DNA of 64,000 nucleotides, taken from assembly GCA_902557645.1 (NCBI GenBank), contig CACEAP010000002.1, positions 62,001 to 126,000 of the forward strand, written 5' to 3'. The translations under genes were made by a program, and so were the position numbers. The stretch is from an uncultured SAR86 cluster bacterium. Lineage in GTDB: Bacteria > Pseudomonadota > Gammaproteobacteria > Magnimaribacterales > D2472. Position 1 is the stretch's first letter. Each line of letters opens with the position of its first letter. Shown here one piece after another: positions 45,869-51,352 of this stretch. The notes under the pieces were generated by a model. It was not told the DNA's origin. It saw only the letters and a list, made by a program, of their open reading frames with translations, and ran no database searches.

Positions 45869-45886
45869 CTATTCCACTGTGACGGA
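45869..45886 (-). repeat. glmS-tail core copy 1 (array end)
   Basis: On the minus strand TCC GTC ACA GTG GAA TAG, coding Ser-Val-Thr-Val-Glu-stop, same frame as the end of glmS. It uses different codons at five of six positions (Ser, first Val, Thr, Glu differ; stop TAG is the same as in glmS and the fourth codon GTG is shared). It is the far boundary of the array. Confidence 0.85.
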
Positions 45887-45911
45887 TTGTTTTCGTCGTG
45901 TCGTGATCATG

Positions 45912-46610
45912 TTAACGCTCGTAACCCATTGCATCGAACTCGATCCTGCAGTTCTTATATATTTGGTCCTTTACTTTCTGCGACAACAGCTCGGATGCAG
46001 GCCTTCTGTTAGTTCGGAATTTGTGTTTGGTTTGTGGATAGTGCGCGACAATATCAAATTCAAGCCTGTCGCCGAGGGTCGTGAGGTCTTCCTGCATATT
46101 GTCAAAATTGACAATGAAATCGACAATAGGTTTTTCTCCGTCTGAATAGATTGGGTAACTGACGTAATACTTCTTCTTCAGAACACGCTCAAGCTCCTTG
46201 TCAAAACTCCAGTTCTTTTTTCCGCGCGCATGATAATAGATATGTGATACAACCTTTTCGTACGGATGCCTTTCGATCGAAAAAGTGAAGTAATCATCGT
46301 AAGTTTTTTTGCCGACGTACTCGCGAATCGCAACAGCCGGCATATGATTGAAAAACTTGCCACGGCGTCTGGCGCGTAAAAATTTCATCTTGCGTGCCTT
46401 TATCATATCGCGATATCGCTGCTCTCCAAGACCGCCGTAGTTCTGAGGTAACGTGCCGCCCATGTCCAGCCTGACGAGTTCGTCTTCAAACGATATTGGA
46501 GTGATGATGTCATCGGGACCACAGACTTGGCTCAGACTAACCTCCATGCTTGTGCCCGAGGTTTTACGGGTCTTTACGAAAATAAACTTCTTTGCATGGC
46601 TAACGATCAT
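45912..46610 (-). CDS. Sulfotransferase, sulfotransferase-family-2-like
   Basis: 232 residues with the PAPS 5'-phosphosulfate loop FVKTRKTSGTSMEVSL (residues about 11-26), which is the P-loop-like KTxKTxGTS motif of family 2 and HNK-type sulfotransferases, and IERHPYEKVVSHIYYHARG as the 3'-phosphate motif (xRHPxxxVxS). It transfers sulfate to a carbohydrate or other acceptor. It overlaps the upstream sulfotransferase by 11 bases. GC-rich and foreign in composition. Confidence 0.8.
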   Translation of the reverse strand: MIVSHAKKFIFVKTRKTSGTSMEVSLSQVCGPDDIITPISFEDELVRLDMGGTLPQNYGGLGEQRYRDMIKARKMKFLRARRRGKFFNHMPAVAIREYVGKKTYDDYFTFSIERHPYEKVVSHIYYHARGKKNWSFDKELERVLKKKYYVSYPIYSDGEKPIVDFIVNFDNMQEDLTTLGDRLEFDIVAHYPQTKHKFRTNRRPASELLSQKVKDQIYKNCRIEFDAMGYER

Positions 46611-47403
46611 TGGTTGCTCTGCTGATTCGACTAAGTCCTTTCTTGCGCCGATAGATAGCTATTTTTCTCGAAGCATCAATGGATTGCGAAATTCTCTGCC
46701 AAAAACGTTTTTTCTCCGGATACCGACTGTTAGATTTATCCGGTAAAACGCCGTCCAGAACAACTTCCCAATCCGGCGATGATTCGTATCCACAGCCGAT
46801 CAGATCTGGTGTCATTGTGCCGTGGATTGCCTGCTGTTGAACGATGCGACCGAGATGTTTTCGCCAGACACCGACACTGGTCGGTCCAATAGGACGGACG
46901 CCACGCATTGCAACCTTTGACTTTTCAGACACTTGCGCGTGTTCATGGTACTCAGAAAATTTGTGTTGTTTCTCAAGCCATGGAAATTTTGCAGTGATTT
47001 GGCTTTGTGTGGCGTCAGGGTTATTTACGAAATCCTCGTACCGGATATTGAGAAAACGATCGTGGCCGAACAATGGGCGTGCACAGGCATGCAATTCACG
47101 CCAAAGCCTAATGTTCGAGTAGTACATATCCTCGCTCTTACCGTGCCGGCTAACGATGACATCACGCGGATCGCGCGTTACGTAAATGACATAGAGATTA
47201 GGATCGTCGATGACTCCTGGCATGTACAACGTATCTTTGGGTCGTTTCGTGATAACCACATCATTGTTTTTTGCGGTTACGAGGTGAAAGCGAATCTCAT
47301 GATCATAATGCTTGTTTGTCCGAAAACAGGTGACCATCGCCTCGTGCAAGAGAGTGGTACCGGATCGCGGCGAGCAGGCAACAATGTGAATGTGCTTAAA
47401 CAT
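46600..47403 (-). CDS. Sulfotransferase (PAPS-dependent)
   Basis: 267 residues. IVACSPRSGTTLLHEAM is the PAPS 5'-phosphosulfate binding loop (residues 7-23) and YVTRDPRDVIVSRHG is the 3'-phosphate motif (RDPRDVIVS). The C-terminal region is basic. It resembles bacterial and cyanophage-type sulfotransferases that modify surface glycans. It is the first gene of cassette A, 71 bases from core 2, and overlaps the second gene by 11 bases, so the two are coupled. Confidence 0.82.
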   Translation of the reverse strand: MFKHIHIVACSPRSGTTLLHEAMVTCFRTNKHYDHEIRFHLVTAKNNDVVITKRPKDTLYMPGVIDDPNLYVIYVTRDPRDVIVSRHGKSEDMYYSNIRLWRELHACARPLFGHDRFLNIRYEDFVNNPDATQSQITAKFPWLEKQHKFSEYHEHAQVSEKSKVAMRGVRPIGPTSVGVWRKHLGRIVQQQAIHGTMTPDLIGCGYESSPDWEVVLDGVLPDKSNSRYPEKKRFWQRISQSIDASRKIAIYRRKKGLSRISRATNDR

Positions 47404-47474
47404 ACGTCAACTCCCTAGTGCGCCGTCGAGGGCCGAATACTTCTTTTGTAAATAATCGGAGATATAAGTTTGTT

Positions 47475-47492
47475 CTACTCGACAGTAACTGA
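47475..47492 (-). repeat. glmS-tail core copy 2
   Basis: On the minus strand TCA GTT ACT GTC GAG TAG, coding Ser-Val-Thr-Val-Glu-stop. It differs from the glmS end by synonymous codons at the first Val, Thr and second Val. It separates cassettes B and A. Confidence 0.9.
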
Positions 47493-48015
47493 CTATTTTT
47501 AAACAGTGATTTAATTCTAACACTATTTATTCTTTTGATTTTTCAGCATCATAAAAAATTACATCATGCCCTTTTTTTTCAAGGCATTTCTCAAGACCAG
47601 AATATTCTCTAAACTCCTTTGTTGCATTTGTAACAAAAATTGTTGAACCTCCTAAGACACCTCCCACAGTTCCTGCTGCAACATAAATAGGCGCAAAAAC
47701 TCCACTTGCAGTGGCAATTGTATAAAGTCCGCCTAATGCTAAATAAGATCCAAAACCAATACCAACTTTTGAAGATCTATTTGCTCTATTGTTAGATGTT
47801 TTTATACATTCATCTAACTCATTCTCAAAAGCATATAGATCTGTATCAGATGACCTTTTTACATGTACAGGCGTATTGACTAACTGTAAGTACTCTTCAG
47901 CATCAGGTTTTACATTGATAGTATTGGAAACGCATGAGGATAAAACAAATAGTAATAGAAAAAAAAATAAACCCTTAGTTTGCATAGTTTTCTACTTCTA
48001 AATCACTGTTTAAAA
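47493..48015 (-). mobile_element. Cassette B: one lipoprotein gene, 17-bp terminal inverted repeats
   Basis: 523 bases between core copies 2 and 3. The ends carry a perfect 17-bp inverted repeat: TTTTAAACAGTGATTTA at 47497-47513 and its complement at 47999-48015, touching the core on the glmS side. The single gene (47527-47985) fills nearly all of it. Base composition is like the host. Confidence 0.85.
47527..47985 (-). CDS. Lipoprotein with glycine-rich hydrophobic segment (152 aa)
   Basis: 152 residues. The signal sequence (LFFFLLLFVLSSC) gives a lipobox at Cys18. The mature protein has a charged region with one Cys (ENELDECIKTSNN), a Gly/Ala-rich hydrophobic stretch (GIGFGSYLALGGLYTIATASGVFAPIYVAAGTVGGVLGGS) and a polar tail with a second Cys (LEKCLEKKGHDVIFYD). 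It looks like a Gly-zipper lipoprotein, with no named family. The only gene of cassette B. Confidence 0.7.
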   Translation of the reverse strand: MQTKGLFFFLLLFVLSSCVSNTINVKPDAEEYLQLVNTPVHVKRSSDTDLYAFENELDECIKTSNNRANRSSKVGIGFGSYLALGGLYTIATASGVFAPIYVAAGTVGGVLGGSTIFVTNATKEFREYSGLEKCLEKKGHDVIFYDAEKSKE

Positions 48016-48033
48016 TTACTCCACCGTCACTGA
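48016..48033 (-). repeat. glmS-tail core copy 3
   Basis: On the minus strand TCA GTG ACG GTG GAG TAA, coding Ser-Val-Thr-Val-Glu-stop. Only the first Val codon and the stop differ from glmS. It separates cassettes C and B. The flanks CACTGTT (48004) and AACAGTG (48043) form an inverted repeat across it. Confidence 0.92.
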
Positions 48034-48207
48034 GTGTTTTGGAACAGTGCATTAGTCCTCTTTGTATTCCTGTTCGAGAATTCCTTTGTCCTGGAGTTTT
48101 TTCGAAAGTTTTTCCACTGGAACCAATGCTATGACCCACATTGCAACGAGGAGTCCTATTACTATTATCCATTCCATAATTTTTCCTTGTTAAAGCACTG
48201 TTCGAAA
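48034..48207 (-). mobile_element. Cassette C: 174-base cassette with one 41-residue gene
   Basis: The smallest cassette, between core copies 3 and 4. Terminal inverted repeats: GGAACAGTGC at 48041-48050 and GCACTGTTC at 48195-48203. The gene (48052-48177) leaves only 18 and 30 bases to the cores. Confidence 0.8.
48052..48177 (-). CDS. Small membrane protein in cassette C (41 aa)
   Basis: 41 residues: MEWIIVIGLLVAMWVIALV is one membrane helix, followed by a charged tail (VEKLSKKLQDKGILEQEYKED). It is too short for most gene finders; I found it by reading the frame between the two core copies. Its position entirely inside a cassette, orientation like all other cassette genes and tight spacing (18 and 30 bases to the cores) support it. 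Function unknown. Confidence 0.65.
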   Translation of the reverse strand: MEWIIVIGLLVAMWVIALVPVEKLSKKLQDKGILEQEYKED

Positions 48208-48225
48208 TTACTCCACCGTAACGGA
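48208..48225 (-). repeat. glmS-tail core copy 4
   Basis: On the minus strand TCC GTT ACG GTG GAG TAA, coding Ser-Val-Thr-Val-Glu-stop. Its flanks extend a palindrome, TTACTCC/GGAGTAA, around the core on the plus strand. It separates cassettes D and C. Confidence 0.9.
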
Positions 48226-48310
48226 GTAAGTGAACCTCAACTTTTAATCTCCACTATTTCTGCGATGTTTTAATATATATTTATTCAGCATAATAAACCC
48301 GCCTAAAAAG

Positions 48311-48829
48311 TCATAAAATATCTATAACTTCGCCTGTATCCCTGTATATTGCTCTTACTTTTTTCCCTTCGTTTTGCATTTTTTTTATTTGTAATTCTTG
48401 GCTAATATAATTATGGTCTGGGGTATCTCCATTAAGAACATCGCTCCAATAATTACTATTATAAACTTGTATCTTCCACGGTCGACGAACAGGAGGAGTC
48501 CACTTATTTCTCTTTCGAGAGTTACTTGAATCAGAGCTACTTGAATCAGAGCTGCTTGAATCAGGGCTACTTGAATCAAAACTAAGATCTGATCCTGCTT
48601 CCGTTAACCCTCCTAGGATTTTTAAAAAAGGCCAAATTCCTAAATAGTAAAGAAAAAGAAAGCTATACTTCATTGGCCACCAAATAGTGATCATAAAGAA
48701 CCAATAAACTATTTTTGTAAAGATGCTATCTTTAGCGACCTGTTTAAAGTCATCTATCTTTTGCTTAATTTCATTAATCTTGTTAGTAATAAGATCAATA
48801 TTTTTTTTGATATTTTTAAAAAACTCCAT
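48311..48829 (-). CDS. Membrane protein with Ser/Asp repeats (172 aa)
   Basis: 172 residues. An N-terminal amphipathic/coiled region (FFKNIKKNIDLITNKINEIKQKIDDFKQ) is followed by about two hydrophobic segments (FTKIVYWFFMITIWWPMKYSFLFLYYLGIWPFLKIL), then a low-complexity Ser/Asp stretch encoded by tandem 15-base repeats (48523-48581), and a C-terminal domain (WKIQVYNSNYWSDVLNGDTPDHN). AGGAGGAGAAT before the ATG is a strong ribosome site. No family recognised. Only gene of cassette D. Confidence 0.7.
   Translation of the reverse strand: MEFFKNIKKNIDLITNKINEIKQKIDDFKQVAKDSIFTKIVYWFFMITIWWPMKYSFLFLYYLGIWPFLKILGGLTEAGSDLSFDSSSPDSSSSDSSSSDSSNSRKRNKWTPPVRRPWKIQVYNSNYWSDVLNGDTPDHNYISQELQIKKMQNEGKKVRAIYRDTGEVIDIL
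48523..48581 (-). repeat. 15-base tandem repeat in the cassette D gene
   Basis: About four copies of a 15-base unit (plus strand ACTTGAATCAGAGCT with single substitutions). They code the SSSDS units of the Ser/Asp linker. In-frame length means copy number can vary without frameshift. Confidence 0.85.
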
Positions 48830-49001
48830 ATTCTCCTCCTTTAGGGTTTTAATGCTAAACCTTCTATAGCCCCTTATAAATATACATTAGGAGTCACATT
48901 AAGTCATGCCAACCCCTTATGGCTTCCGCTAACACGAAAAAATAGGTGAAATTTTTAAGGTAATTTTTACCGGGAGTTCTTTTTATTAATTTATGAAACA
49001 A

Positions 49002-49014
49002 CCGCAGAATGCGG
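49002..49014 (-). terminator. Weak hairpin that could end cassette E transcripts
   Basis: A CCGCA/TGCGG hairpin with a 3-base loop followed on the minus strand by TTGTTTC. It is short, lies just inside cassette D, and the T run is poor, so termination is uncertain. Confidence 0.25.
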
Positions 49015-49039
49015 GATTAAAACGAAAGTTGACGTTGGC

Positions 49040-49057
49040 TTACTCCACCGTCATTGA
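49040..49057 (-). repeat. glmS-tail core copy 5
   Basis: On the minus strand TCA ATG ACG GTG GAG TAA: Ser-Met-Thr-Val-Glu-stop, the only copy with a non-synonymous change (Val to Met). It separates cassettes E and D. Confidence 0.9.
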
Positions 49058-49525
49058 GTGTTTTCGTTTGCAGAATAAATTTCTTATAAAAAGTAATATA
49101 TTTTTTATCCATTTAATTTATTTCTGTTTTTGGGCAAACATAATATTAAAGTGATGATAAATGAAATTATGGAAATTGGCATAGTAAATGCTAAGACATA
49201 CATGGTTGTCTCAACCAATTCTGTTGCCGTTCCATCAATCACATCAACAAATCTCCATGCCCAACTCCTATAGTGAAGACAGAATGCAAACCCCCAAGCA
49301 CCGCACAAAATACCTATAGCATTTGAATCCTTGATAGTTAGATATCCTGCAGTTATTAGTAAGGCAACTGCGATAAGGTCAGGCAAATATCCAGCAATAG
49401 TTTGTCCGAACTTTATCGTAAATAAAGTCTCAAGTGTAAAGTGAACAAGGGCAATAAAAATAGTGAAGATAGAAAATTTATAAAGAAATGCTTTCATGTC
49501 CTATGGATTAATTCGGCAAACGAAA
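49058..49525 (-). mobile_element. Cassette E: one four-helix membrane protein gene, next to glmS
   Basis: 468 bases between core copy 5 and the glmS end. Left end TTTTCGTTTGCAGAATAAAT (49061-49080) and right end ATTAATTCGGCAAACGAAA (49507-49525) are inverted repeats with 17 of 19 matches. The gene is 28 bases from the glmS stop. If the array grows at glmS this is the latest arrival. Confidence 0.85.
49105..49497 (-). CDS. Four-helix membrane protein (130 aa)
   Basis: 130 residues, predicted four helices (FSIFTIFIALVHFTLETLF, LIAVALLITAGYLTI, ILCGAWGFAFCLHYRSWAWRF and a C-terminal LAFTMPISIISFIITLILCL) with a short basic tail. The WGFAFCLHYRSWAW segment is unusual, but no named family is recognised. 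It is the only gene of cassette E and lies 28 bases after the glmS stop in the same direction, so it can be read from the glmU-glmS transcript. Confidence 0.7.
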   Translation of the reverse strand: MKAFLYKFSIFTIFIALVHFTLETLFTIKFGQTIAGYLPDLIAVALLITAGYLTIKDSNAIGILCGAWGFAFCLHYRSWAWRFVDVIDGTATELVETTMYVLAFTMPISIISFIITLILCLPKNRNKLNG

Positions 49526-49543
49526 CTACTCCACCGTTACTGA
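49526..49543 (-). repeat. glmS 3'-end core (presumed insertion site)
   Basis: The last six codons of glmS, TCA GTA ACG GTG GAG TAG (Ser-Val-Thr-Val-Glu-stop). Five related copies follow downstream at 49040, 48208, 48016, 47475 and 45869, all in the same orientation and all in the same coding frame. Confidence 0.93.
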
Positions 49544-51352
49544 CTTAGCTAGATTTCTGGGTTGGTCAATATCAGTGCCTCTAAGCAAGGCTACTTCGTA
49601 GGAAAGGATTTGAAGAGGAATGGTGTAAACAATTGGTGTTAACAAGAAGTCACATTGTGGCATGGTTATTAAAGCGCCTTCATTTACATCTATGCTGACA
49701 GATGGGTCGGCAAATACATATAAAGTCCCGCCTCTAGCTTTTACTTCTTCAAGGTTAGATACAAGTTTTTCTGCAATCTCGCTTTCTGGGGCTAAAGCTA
49801 CTACTGGCATATCTTCATCAATTAGCGCTAAAGGACCATGCTTAAGTTCCCCAGCTGGATATGCCTCAGCATGAATGTAAGAAATCTCTTTTAATTTAAG
49901 TGCGCCCTCTTTGGCAATGGGATAAAAAATACCACGCCCTAAAAACAATGCATTATCTTTACTAGCTAAATTTGGTGAAATTTTAAGAATCTCATCTTTT
50001 AGCTCTAAAGTCTTAGTTATTACATCAGGCAATGATCTGAGCCCTTTTACAATTCGGCCACGAAGTCTGGGATTAAGATCTCGGCTTTTGGCTAGCGCAA
50101 GGGTTAGTAACATTAAACCGGCAAGTTGTGTAGTAAAAGCTTTGGTAGAGGCAACTCCTATCTCGGGACCAGCATTAGTAAAAAGCGCAAAATCTGATTC
50201 TCTAGCTAGAGCGCTAGTTGGCACATTACAAATAGTTACTGAGCCTAAATAATCTTTTTCATTGGCATATCTTAAAGCGGCTAATGTATCAGCAGTCTCA
50301 CCTGATTGGGAGATGGTTATTAATAGAGAATTCTTATCAACGTGAGGATTTTTATATCTATACTCGCTTGCATAATCGATTTGGCACGGCAGTTCAGCAA
50401 TTGCAGAGAGCCAATTAGCAGTCACCCTGCCAGCATGTAAACTAGTGCCACAGGCCACTATTTGAATACGTTTTACTTTTGCAAAGAGCTCAGTAGAACC
50501 AAGGCCAAAAATATTATCTAAAACATCATCACTAGTTACTCTGCCATCAACAGTGTTAAGCACCGCTTGAGGTTGCTCGTATATCTCTTTTTCCATAAAG
50601 TGCTTATAGTCGCCTTTGGATGTTGCTTGATTTGAAATGTCTATGTTAGTTATGTCCCGTGTTACTGTATTTTGGTCTTTGTCTCGTATCTCATATGCCT
50701 CAGCAGATATTTCAGCAACATCGCCATCTTCAAGAAAAATAAATTCATTAGTTAACTGGCCAATAGCAAGAGGATCAGAGGCAGCAAAAATTTCATCTGT
50801 ACCTAAACCAATTAATAATGGCGACTTATTCCTGGCAACAACTAACTTTTGATCATCAGCCAAATCAATGGCAGCAATTGCATAGGCGCCTTCTAATTTA
50901 GCTTTTGCTAAAAACATTGCATCTAACATTGAACTACCTTGGTTAAGATATAAGTCTAATAAATGTGCAATGAGCTCAGAGTCTGTTTGCGATGAAAATT
51001 CGTAACCATCTTCAATTAAAGACTCTCTTAGTTCAACATAATTTTCAATTATGCCATTATGGACAATGTAAACCTTGTCTTGAGATTTATGAGGATGCGC
51101 ATTAGACTCTGATGGCTCGCCATGAGTAGCCCATCTAGTATGTGCTATACCTAATTTACTTTTAGGTTTTTCGGCAATCATCTTATCTTCAAGCAATTGT
51201 ACTTTGCCAAGCGTTCGTAAGTGCGCAATAGAATCGTGTTGGTGAAGAGCTATGCCAGCTGAGTCATAGCCACGATATTCCATTTTATGAAGGCCTTGAA
51301 CTAAAAGTTTGCCAACATTTCTAGTAGAAGCTGCGGCTATAATCCCACACAT
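49526..51352 (-). CDS. glmS: Glutamine-fructose-6-phosphate aminotransferase (isomerizing) GlmS
   Basis: 608 residues, as in E. coli (609). Cys2 is the glutaminase nucleophile (MCGII). The glutaminase domain has HTRWATHGEPSESNAHPH, the two SIS domains have CGTSLHAG and SQSGETADTLAALRYA, and the C-terminus is LRGTDIDQPRNLAKSVTVE. It makes glucosamine-6-phosphate for cell wall and LPS. It overlaps the glmU stop by 1 base. The end codons form the core of the cassette array; the region is also the classical attTn7 neighbourhood. Confidence 0.98.
   Translation of the reverse strand: MCGIIAAASTRNVGKLLVQGLHKMEYRGYDSAGIALHQHDSIAHLRTLGKVQLLEDKMIAEKPKSKLGIAHTRWATHGEPSESNAHPHKSQDKVYIVHNGIIENYVELRESLIEDGYEFSSQTDSELIAHLLDLYLNQGSSMLDAMFLAKAKLEGAYAIAAIDLADDQKLVVARNKSPLLIGLGTDEIFAASDPLAIGQLTNEFIFLEDGDVAEISAEAYEIRDKDQNTVTRDITNIDISNQATSKGDYKHFMEKEIYEQPQAVLNTVDGRVTSDDVLDNIFGLGSTELFAKVKRIQIVACGTSLHAGRVTANWLSAIAELPCQIDYASEYRYKNPHVDKNSLLITISQSGETADTLAALRYANEKDYLGSVTICNVPTSALARESDFALFTNAGPEIGVASTKAFTTQLAGLMLLTLALAKSRDLNPRLRGRIVKGLRSLPDVITKTLELKDEILKISPNLASKDNALFLGRGIFYPIAKEGALKLKEISYIHAEAYPAGELKHGPLALIDEDMPVVALAPESEIAEKLVSNLEEVKARGGTLYVFADPSVSIDVNEGALITMPQCDFLLTPIVYTIPLQILSYEVALLRGTDIDQPRNLAKSVTVE

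Follow-up and report, generated by a model that had tools for sequence, protein, structure and literature searches.

Tandem cassettes with matched terminal arms at the 3' end of SAR86 glmS, a likely product of serine integrases acting in trans

Bacteria of the SAR86 cluster are among the most abundant of the surface ocean and have small genomes. The window analysed here, a 64,000-nucleotide stretch of DNA from an uncultured SAR86 cluster bacterium (contig CACEAP010000002.1 of assembly GCA_902557645.1), carries next to its essential glmS gene a row of short cassettes, most of which end in inverted repeats. What could require the two ends of a cassette to match each other, and which kind of enzyme would bring such cassettes to this one gene? 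The arrays bear on how SAR86 gains genes.

The repeat at the cassette boundaries is the 3' terminus of the glmS coding sequence. This 17-base core (TCAGTAACGGTGGAGTA) covers the S-V-T-V-E codons and runs into the stop codon, at the end of the minus-strand gene. It is found at six places in the window, all in one orientation; besides glmS, the copies start at 49041, 48209, 48017, 47476 and 45870, the last of these (45870-45886) being more diverged. A search of the whole genome revealed no core copies beyond these six. We propose that the last codons of glmS are the chromosomal attachment site. The five intervals between cores are the cassettes E, D, C, B and A, in order from glmS.

49526-51352, minus strand: glmS, ORF with C-terminus DIDQPRNLAKSVTVE, final codons S-V-T-V-E-stop
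49527-49543, minus strand: core 1, glmS 3' end, proposed attB/attL; crossover dinucleotide 49536-49537
49041-49057, minus strand: core 2; crossover dinucleotide 49050-49051
48209-48225, minus strand: core 3; crossover dinucleotide 48218-48219
48017-48033, minus strand: core 4; crossover dinucleotide 48026-48027
47476-47492, minus strand: core 5; crossover dinucleotide 47485-47486
45870-45886, minus strand: core 6, distal end of the array; crossover dinucleotide 45879-45880

The original prediction held that four of the five cassettes have inverted-repeat ends. Such ends are indeed present in E, D, C and B and absent in A (45887-47475). The perfect 17-mer announced for cassette B is confirmed, with 47497-47513 (TTTTAAACAGTGATTTA) and 47999-48015 (TAAATCACTGTTTAAAA) being exact reverse complements. 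Nine consecutive bases are common to both ends of C, and the repeats of D (22 nt, 86%) and E (25 nt, 84%) are interrupted. The arms and cargo of the cassettes are as follows, with own-arm matches given in a fixed 20-bp register in which cassette A, its ends unmatched, scores 4/20.

49507-49526, minus strand: cassette E, glmS-proximal arm GTTTCGTTTGCCGAATTAAT; 17/20 against its own distal arm
49105-49497, minus strand: cassette E cargo, 130-aa predicted protein without Pfam match
49061-49080, minus strand: cassette E, distal arm; 17/20, compensatory difference from the array L053 (see below)
49021-49040, minus strand: cassette D, glmS-proximal arm; 14/20
48311-48829, minus strand: cassette D cargo, 172-aa predicted protein
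48229-48248, minus strand: cassette D, distal arm; 14/20
48189-48208, minus strand: cassette C, glmS-proximal arm; 15/20
48052-48177, minus strand: cassette C cargo, ORF for a 41-aa hydrophobic peptide
48037-48056, minus strand: cassette C, distal arm; 15/20
47997-48016, minus strand: cassette B, glmS-proximal arm; 17/20, includes the perfect 17-mer
47527-47985, minus strand: cassette B cargo, 152-aa lipoprotein-like protein (lipoprotein as read from the sequence)
47496-47515, minus strand: cassette B, distal arm; 17/20
46600-47403, minus strand: cassette A cargo 1, sulfotransferase (Pfam Sulfotransfer_3/1)
45912-46610, minus strand: cassette A cargo 2, sulfotransferase family 2 (Pfam PF03567)

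Among all 120 possible pairings of left and right arms in the window, the true one is the best. The prediction of a distinct arm sequence for every cassette holds only in part: the arms do differ in general, but the arms of B are related to those of C (14-15/20 in cross-matches).

The DNA downstream of glmS was fetched from relatives, and the loci of the window's own family were picked without regard to cores. At least two cores are present in 70 of the 73 usable glmS loci of this family, with a maximum of eleven. The core pattern occurs in 153 of 203 genomes, covering all four families of the order, where a lone match may be glmS itself. Arrays from the other families were likewise fetched and delimited. 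The resulting 300 cassettes, from 111 loci, are arranged in tandem, head to tail, with a median length of 663 bp; one inverted core was seen in all scanned arrays. They fall into 214 families, 172 of which were seen once. A single ORF of at least 50 codons is present in 186 of the 300, and 414 of 482 ORFs are co-oriented with glmS. The cassettes come and go singly. In four cases two cassettes, X and Z, that adjoin each other in one genome are parted by a single cassette Y in another; one of these is the window itself, with E-D-C here and E-C in L053. In twenty array comparisons, one array has an additional cassette beside glmS. Nearly every species genome examined has a different cassette set at the same chromosomal spot. 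Four scans of viral contigs (for the integrase and for three site patterns) yielded no real match that could point to a viral source of the cassettes; a match in L156 proved to be due to chance, lying within a phage tape-measure-like gene.

The matching of ends observed in the window extends to these arrays. Comparing columns +17 to +36, which follow a core, with columns -4 to -23, which precede the next one, we found a mean within-cassette match of 11.79/20, against 7.57 for re-paired arms (sd 0.14, z about 30, 300 cassettes). The signal is unchanged after removal of duplicate arm pairs (11.63 versus 7.51). Arms facing each other across one core match at the background level (7.66/20), as do control windows outside the arms. 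Since arm types recur, an earlier pairing test by local alignment showed the matching less strongly than the fixed register does. A match of at least 13/20 is reached by 53% of the cassettes and by 8.5% of re-paired arms. Clearly matched arms are absent in roughly half of the cassettes, A included; these may be decayed, composite after loss of a core, or following another rule. The match is best nearest glmS and declines weakly outward (Spearman -0.17, P = 0.004), as expected if new cassettes enter at glmS and old ones decay.

The two ends also change together. Among pairs of homologous cassettes with diverged left arms (at most 12/20 in common), a cassette's own pairing wins over the cross pairing 144 times and loses 21 times, the pairs not being fully independent. 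Cassette E provides a direct example: its coding part is nearly identical in the window and in L053, and both ends have changed in a compensatory manner: one of the two cassettes has the arms TTTCGTTTGCCGAAT / ATTCTGCAAACGAAA, its counterpart TTCGG--TGACGAAT / ATTCGTCACTCGAAA. The covariation of ends that the original prediction called for is therefore present. The outcomes that would have overturned it, a lack of covariation or ends that match no better than shuffled sequence, did not occur, the true ends matching far better than shuffled or re-paired ones. These comparisons support the idea that excision as a circle would place one core between the two arms, with the pair conserved and its sequence variable.

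Where within the core one cassette gives way to the next can be read from its bases. Across 345 internal cores, conservation reaches 88-99% at the first and second codon positions, while the third positions vary, their commonest base accounting for 41-59%. We measured the linkage of core bases to the upstream or downstream cassette, averaged over cassette families and bootstrapped over families. When two cores share the upstream cassette, columns -1, 2 and 5 agree at 0.72, 0.71 and 0.67 (random expectation 0.29, 0.35 and 0.28), compared with 0.26, 0.34 and 0.37 when they share the downstream cassette. Columns 8, 11 and 14 behave the other way round: 0.47, 0.54 and 0.75 at a shared downstream cassette (random 0.33, 0.35 and 0.52), and 0.31, 0.43 and 0.46 at a shared upstream cassette. 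Core columns up to 5 thus go with the upstream cassette and those from 8 onward with the downstream one. This switch between columns 5 and 8 places the strand exchange at columns 6-7, the near-invariant AC of the threonine codon. The 20-bp arms are symmetric about columns 6/7, so that by sequence the exchange point coincides with their dyad centre. The attachment sites of serine integrases are likewise built of inverted repeats around a central 2-bp crossover, and so narrow a crossover in the middle of such a site is their hallmark (PMC4111918).

One element carries a candidate for the enzyme. Within the glmS array of another SAR86 genome (locus L059, genome G084, SAR86 AH-326-D05) lies a 6.05-kb element with a core at both ends and arms matching at 16/20. 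It encodes a 551-aa large serine recombinase with Resolvase (PF00239), Recombinase (PF07508) and Zn-ribbon (PF13408, below cut-off) domains, the ORF ending about 26 bp from the distal core. Its other cargo comprises a G2P-type replication protein and several proteins of no assigned function. Relatives of the integrase in the PDB include those of SPbeta, TP901-1 and PhiC31, and it matches phage integrase families in PHROGs. Its best NCBIfam matches are CcrB, XisF and CcrA, all below cut-off (CcrB 80.8 bits versus 900, CcrA 60 versus 700), which gives it no family-level ccr identity. Among the matches listed from the phage and plasmid collections the integrases are distant, at about 30% identity or less.

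Such enzymes are rare in the genomes that carry the cassettes. This integrase occurs at glmS in one of 203 genomes of the order, and a profile search detected PF00239 serine recombinases in 3 of 106 genomes of the family. The helper pool is therefore mostly unseen. Other SAR86 serine recombinases, in G079 and G088, are not flanked by the glmS core and were set aside. In the window's genome (assembly 87.5% complete) the profile search found no PF00239-type recombinase. Since most genomes, this one included, are without such a recombinase, the cassettes were probably mobilised in trans. The arms of an integrase-free 1.3-kb cassette in another genome (L039) agree with those of the L059 element at 17/20 and 20/20 positions, the pattern that mobilisation in trans would leave. 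Tyrosine recombinases (PF00589) typically number two per genome, with few exceptions, and are taken to be XerC and XerD. The profile survey of the genomes reported no PF00589 protein beside glmS and found no IntI-type integrase.

These data bear on two readings that would assign the cassettes to tyrosine recombinases. One is the stem-forming site evoked by the original prediction: the strand of an excised cassette would fold through its arms, and a tyrosine (IntI-like) or Xer recombinase would act on the folded single strand, as at integron attC. As single strands, the arm-core-arm joins do fold well (fold z -7.5 for B, -3.6 for C, -6.0 for D and -5.0 for E), in contrast to a mismatched junction of the B distal and A proximal arms (+0.6), and the array resembles an integron in its conserved structure with variable sequence and its arrayed, co-oriented cassettes. 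That part of the prediction stands, but it does not make the stem attC-like, since any inverted repeat folds. Selected base pairing should leave an excess of G·T among the mismatches of the folded strand. Of the mismatches in arm columns 21-33, G·T accounts for 20% on the top strand (expected 19%) and 22% on the bottom strand (expected 19%). A raw asymmetry of G·T versus A·C mismatches (102 to 143) was discarded, as it mostly disappears against column composition in the central arm. With G·T at the expected level, the matching arms are best interpreted as a pair of half-sites at which one protein dimer binds duplex DNA. An arm-core-arm arrangement with inverted-repeat arms is the usual form of a serine integrase attP on duplex DNA (PMC4111918). 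The constant part moreover sits on the loop side of the stem and the arms are variable, unlike attC. The other reading takes the glmS 3' end for the classical target of tyrosine-integrase islands, with the integrase lost from the arrays; insertion into the 3' end of an essential gene, with the end restored, is indeed common for tyrosine integrases. Both readings conflict with the sharp switch between columns 5 and 8, which confines the exchange to 2 bp between variable, unequal third-codon bases, whereas tyrosine enzymes require 6-8 identical bases at the crossover (PMC4111918). With two PF00589 proteins in most genomes and no additional tyrosine integrase reported at glmS, where one element encodes a serine recombinase instead, we reject a tyrosine recombinase as the main mover. 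We regard the folded-strand mechanism as quite improbable, and the island with a lost tyrosine integrase as very improbable.

Two further readings dispense with site-specific recombination between the arms. If the arms were terminal inverted repeats of transposons from different families, all targeting the glmS end, they would match within an element and differ between elements, as they do. However, the elements always end in a single core, in a constant register around one dyad centre, the arms covary in otherwise homologous cassettes, and the repeated core belongs to the recombination site instead of being a short target duplication. No transposase family is found among the commonest 25 of the 91 families detected in 110 representative cargo proteins. 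This reading appears highly improbable. It is scarcely credible that the arms are transcription terminators or protein-binding operators with no role in recombination: the ends do adjoin the ends of genes, and short palindromes near genes can terminate transcription, but the arms of a cassette, at its two ends, are separated by hundreds of bases and face unrelated arms, and the palindrome forms only in a circular cassette.

We thus consider it likely, from the sequence comparisons above, that the array arose as small integrative cassettes were added in tandem at the glmS 3' end, a process catalysed in trans by large serine integrases. Each cassette would circulate as a circular intermediate carrying an attP of about 60 bp, made of the right arm (20 bp), the core and the left arm (20 bp). 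Since a single integrase dimer has to bind both half-sites, the arms would be inverted repeats; the core would mimic the glmS end, whose last codons would serve as attB. Exchange at the central AC would insert the circle, the half-core of the cassette restoring the final glmS codons. Repeated insertion at glmS would build the head-to-tail array, each junction being composed of a right arm and the unrelated left arm of the next cassette. The arm types may then be recognition barcodes of different integrases having glmS as their common target; a cassette without an integrase would be moved by any integrase that reads its arms, and homologous cassettes could switch barcode. The L059 integrase suggests the enzyme family that would recombine these sites. 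The model requires an integrase that accepts as attB a hybrid site, one half glmS and the other a foreign arm. The reach of the arms, 30 bp from the centre, is somewhat beyond the att sites usually described (up to 50 bp) and counts against it.

The nearest known kinds of system are serine-integrase att sites (PMC4111918), the SCC/ECC elements at rlmH (PMC6222049) and the tandem ssrA islands of Dehalococcoides (PMC3146451). The sites of the large serine integrases PhiC31, TP901-1 and SPbeta YokA share the inverted-repeat half-sites around a 2-bp crossover (PMC4111918), and the L059 recombinase shares their Resolvase, Recombinase and Zn-ribbon domains. Those integrases usually serve one phage and one site, in contrast to the hundreds of small SAR86 cassettes with one attB-like target, numerous arm types and, for the most part, no integrase in cis. 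In SCC/ECC, the serine recombinases CcrA, CcrB and CcrC act at the 3' region of the conserved rlmH gene; the att sites are direct repeats, the circular att site contains inverted repeats, and many elements have multiple attR (PMC6222049). The SAR86 arrays differ in their target (glmS), in their size (mostly 0.2-2.5 kb single-gene elements versus tens of kb), in having arms that differ between neighbours and in having one recombinase gene instead of ccrAB. The Dehalococcoides islands (DsiB) stand in tandem behind a single-copy gene, and a 20-bp repeat of the 3' end of that gene marks their boundaries; some carry a serine recombinase and others were apparently mobilised with their neighbours (PMC3146451). 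They are much larger, and the description consulted notes no matching, island-specific arms (PMC3146451).

With integron cassettes the SAR86 cassettes have in common the head-to-tail single genes, the diverse and mostly unknown cargo, the one primary site and the variable palindromic sites. They differ by the lack of any integron integrase or attC among the findings, by a serine-type exchange point, by a site split over both cassette ends and by entering a coding gene at its end. Tn7, at attTn7, likewise has the conserved glmS 3' end as its target. Tn7 inserts downstream through a DDE transposase with a 5-bp duplication, whereas the SAR86 cassettes duplicate and exchange part of glmS itself, the glmS end being repeated at every boundary. 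In its working the row parallels an integron, though the enzyme is apparently of another kind. We found no description of SAR86 glmS cassette arrays in the literature, of which our coverage was incomplete. We lean, without strong conviction, towards a broader view, in which the arrays would form a cassette platform of the whole SAR86 order, parallel to integrons yet independent of them and served mostly in trans by glmS-specific serine integrases; the arm barcode would set the mover, and changing both arms would switch the helper. If the mechanism holds, the arrays are a ready record of helper/satellite specificity, the hundreds of natural attP variants facing one attB-like target make serine-integrase recognition decodable, and gene flow in uncultured SAR86 becomes testable.

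Outside the order, nearly every sampled gammaproteobacterial genome has at most one core copy, as glmS alone would give. A genome outside the order (G550, locus L116) has one cassette-like insert with a proper core at both ends. In another gammaproteobacterium (G224, locus L136) a longer stretch of glmS is duplicated around a 1.9-kb insert, which we set apart as a different case. The cassette cargo includes type I to III restriction-modification systems and other nucleases. Some cassettes, the L059 element included, encode a small HTH protein adjoining the glmS-proximal arm, and several of these proteins resemble the DNA-binding part of serine recombinases.

In the core, the repeat of the last glmS codons that bounds each cassette, the dyad centre separates the first and second positions of a codon, and its symmetry consequently pairs third codon positions with third codon positions (columns 2, 5, 8, 11 and 14). 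An integrase indifferent to the wobble bases in one half-site would be indifferent to those in the other half-site too.

One cassette of the window belongs to a family present in 11 arrays:
45887-47475, sulfotransferase cassette (two sulfotransferase genes)
The distal end is constant in most copies from these 11 arrays, and the glmS-proximal boundary varies, differing in nearly every genome. The left end looks as if it had been repeatedly trimmed or rejoined.

Several cassettes (loci L069, L034, L043, L073, L039 and L059) encode a small HTH protein at their glmS-proximal end, in most of them at about 100-150 bp from the core. Several are similar to part of the Recombinase domain (PF07508). These proteins are possible candidates for arm-binding or directionality factors, the arms being the inverted repeats that flank the core. 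SAR86 also has two other serine recombinases, each about 520 aa long (L092 and L093, in genomes G079 and G088), which are sited elsewhere in the genome, with no glmS core near them.

Restriction-modification and other nuclease genes are found in larger cassettes (L039, L138, L122, L124, L076, L125 and L137), which suggests that the glmS array is a hotspot of defence genes in SAR86. In a member of a different small-genome gammaproteobacterial family (L116, genome G550), glmS is followed by a single insert that resembles a cassette: it has the same core and carries a gene predicted to be nuclease-like. Another gammaproteobacterium (L136, genome G224) has an insert of 1.9 kb at this place, but the repeat of the glmS end on its flanks is longer, and it apparently represents a different element type.
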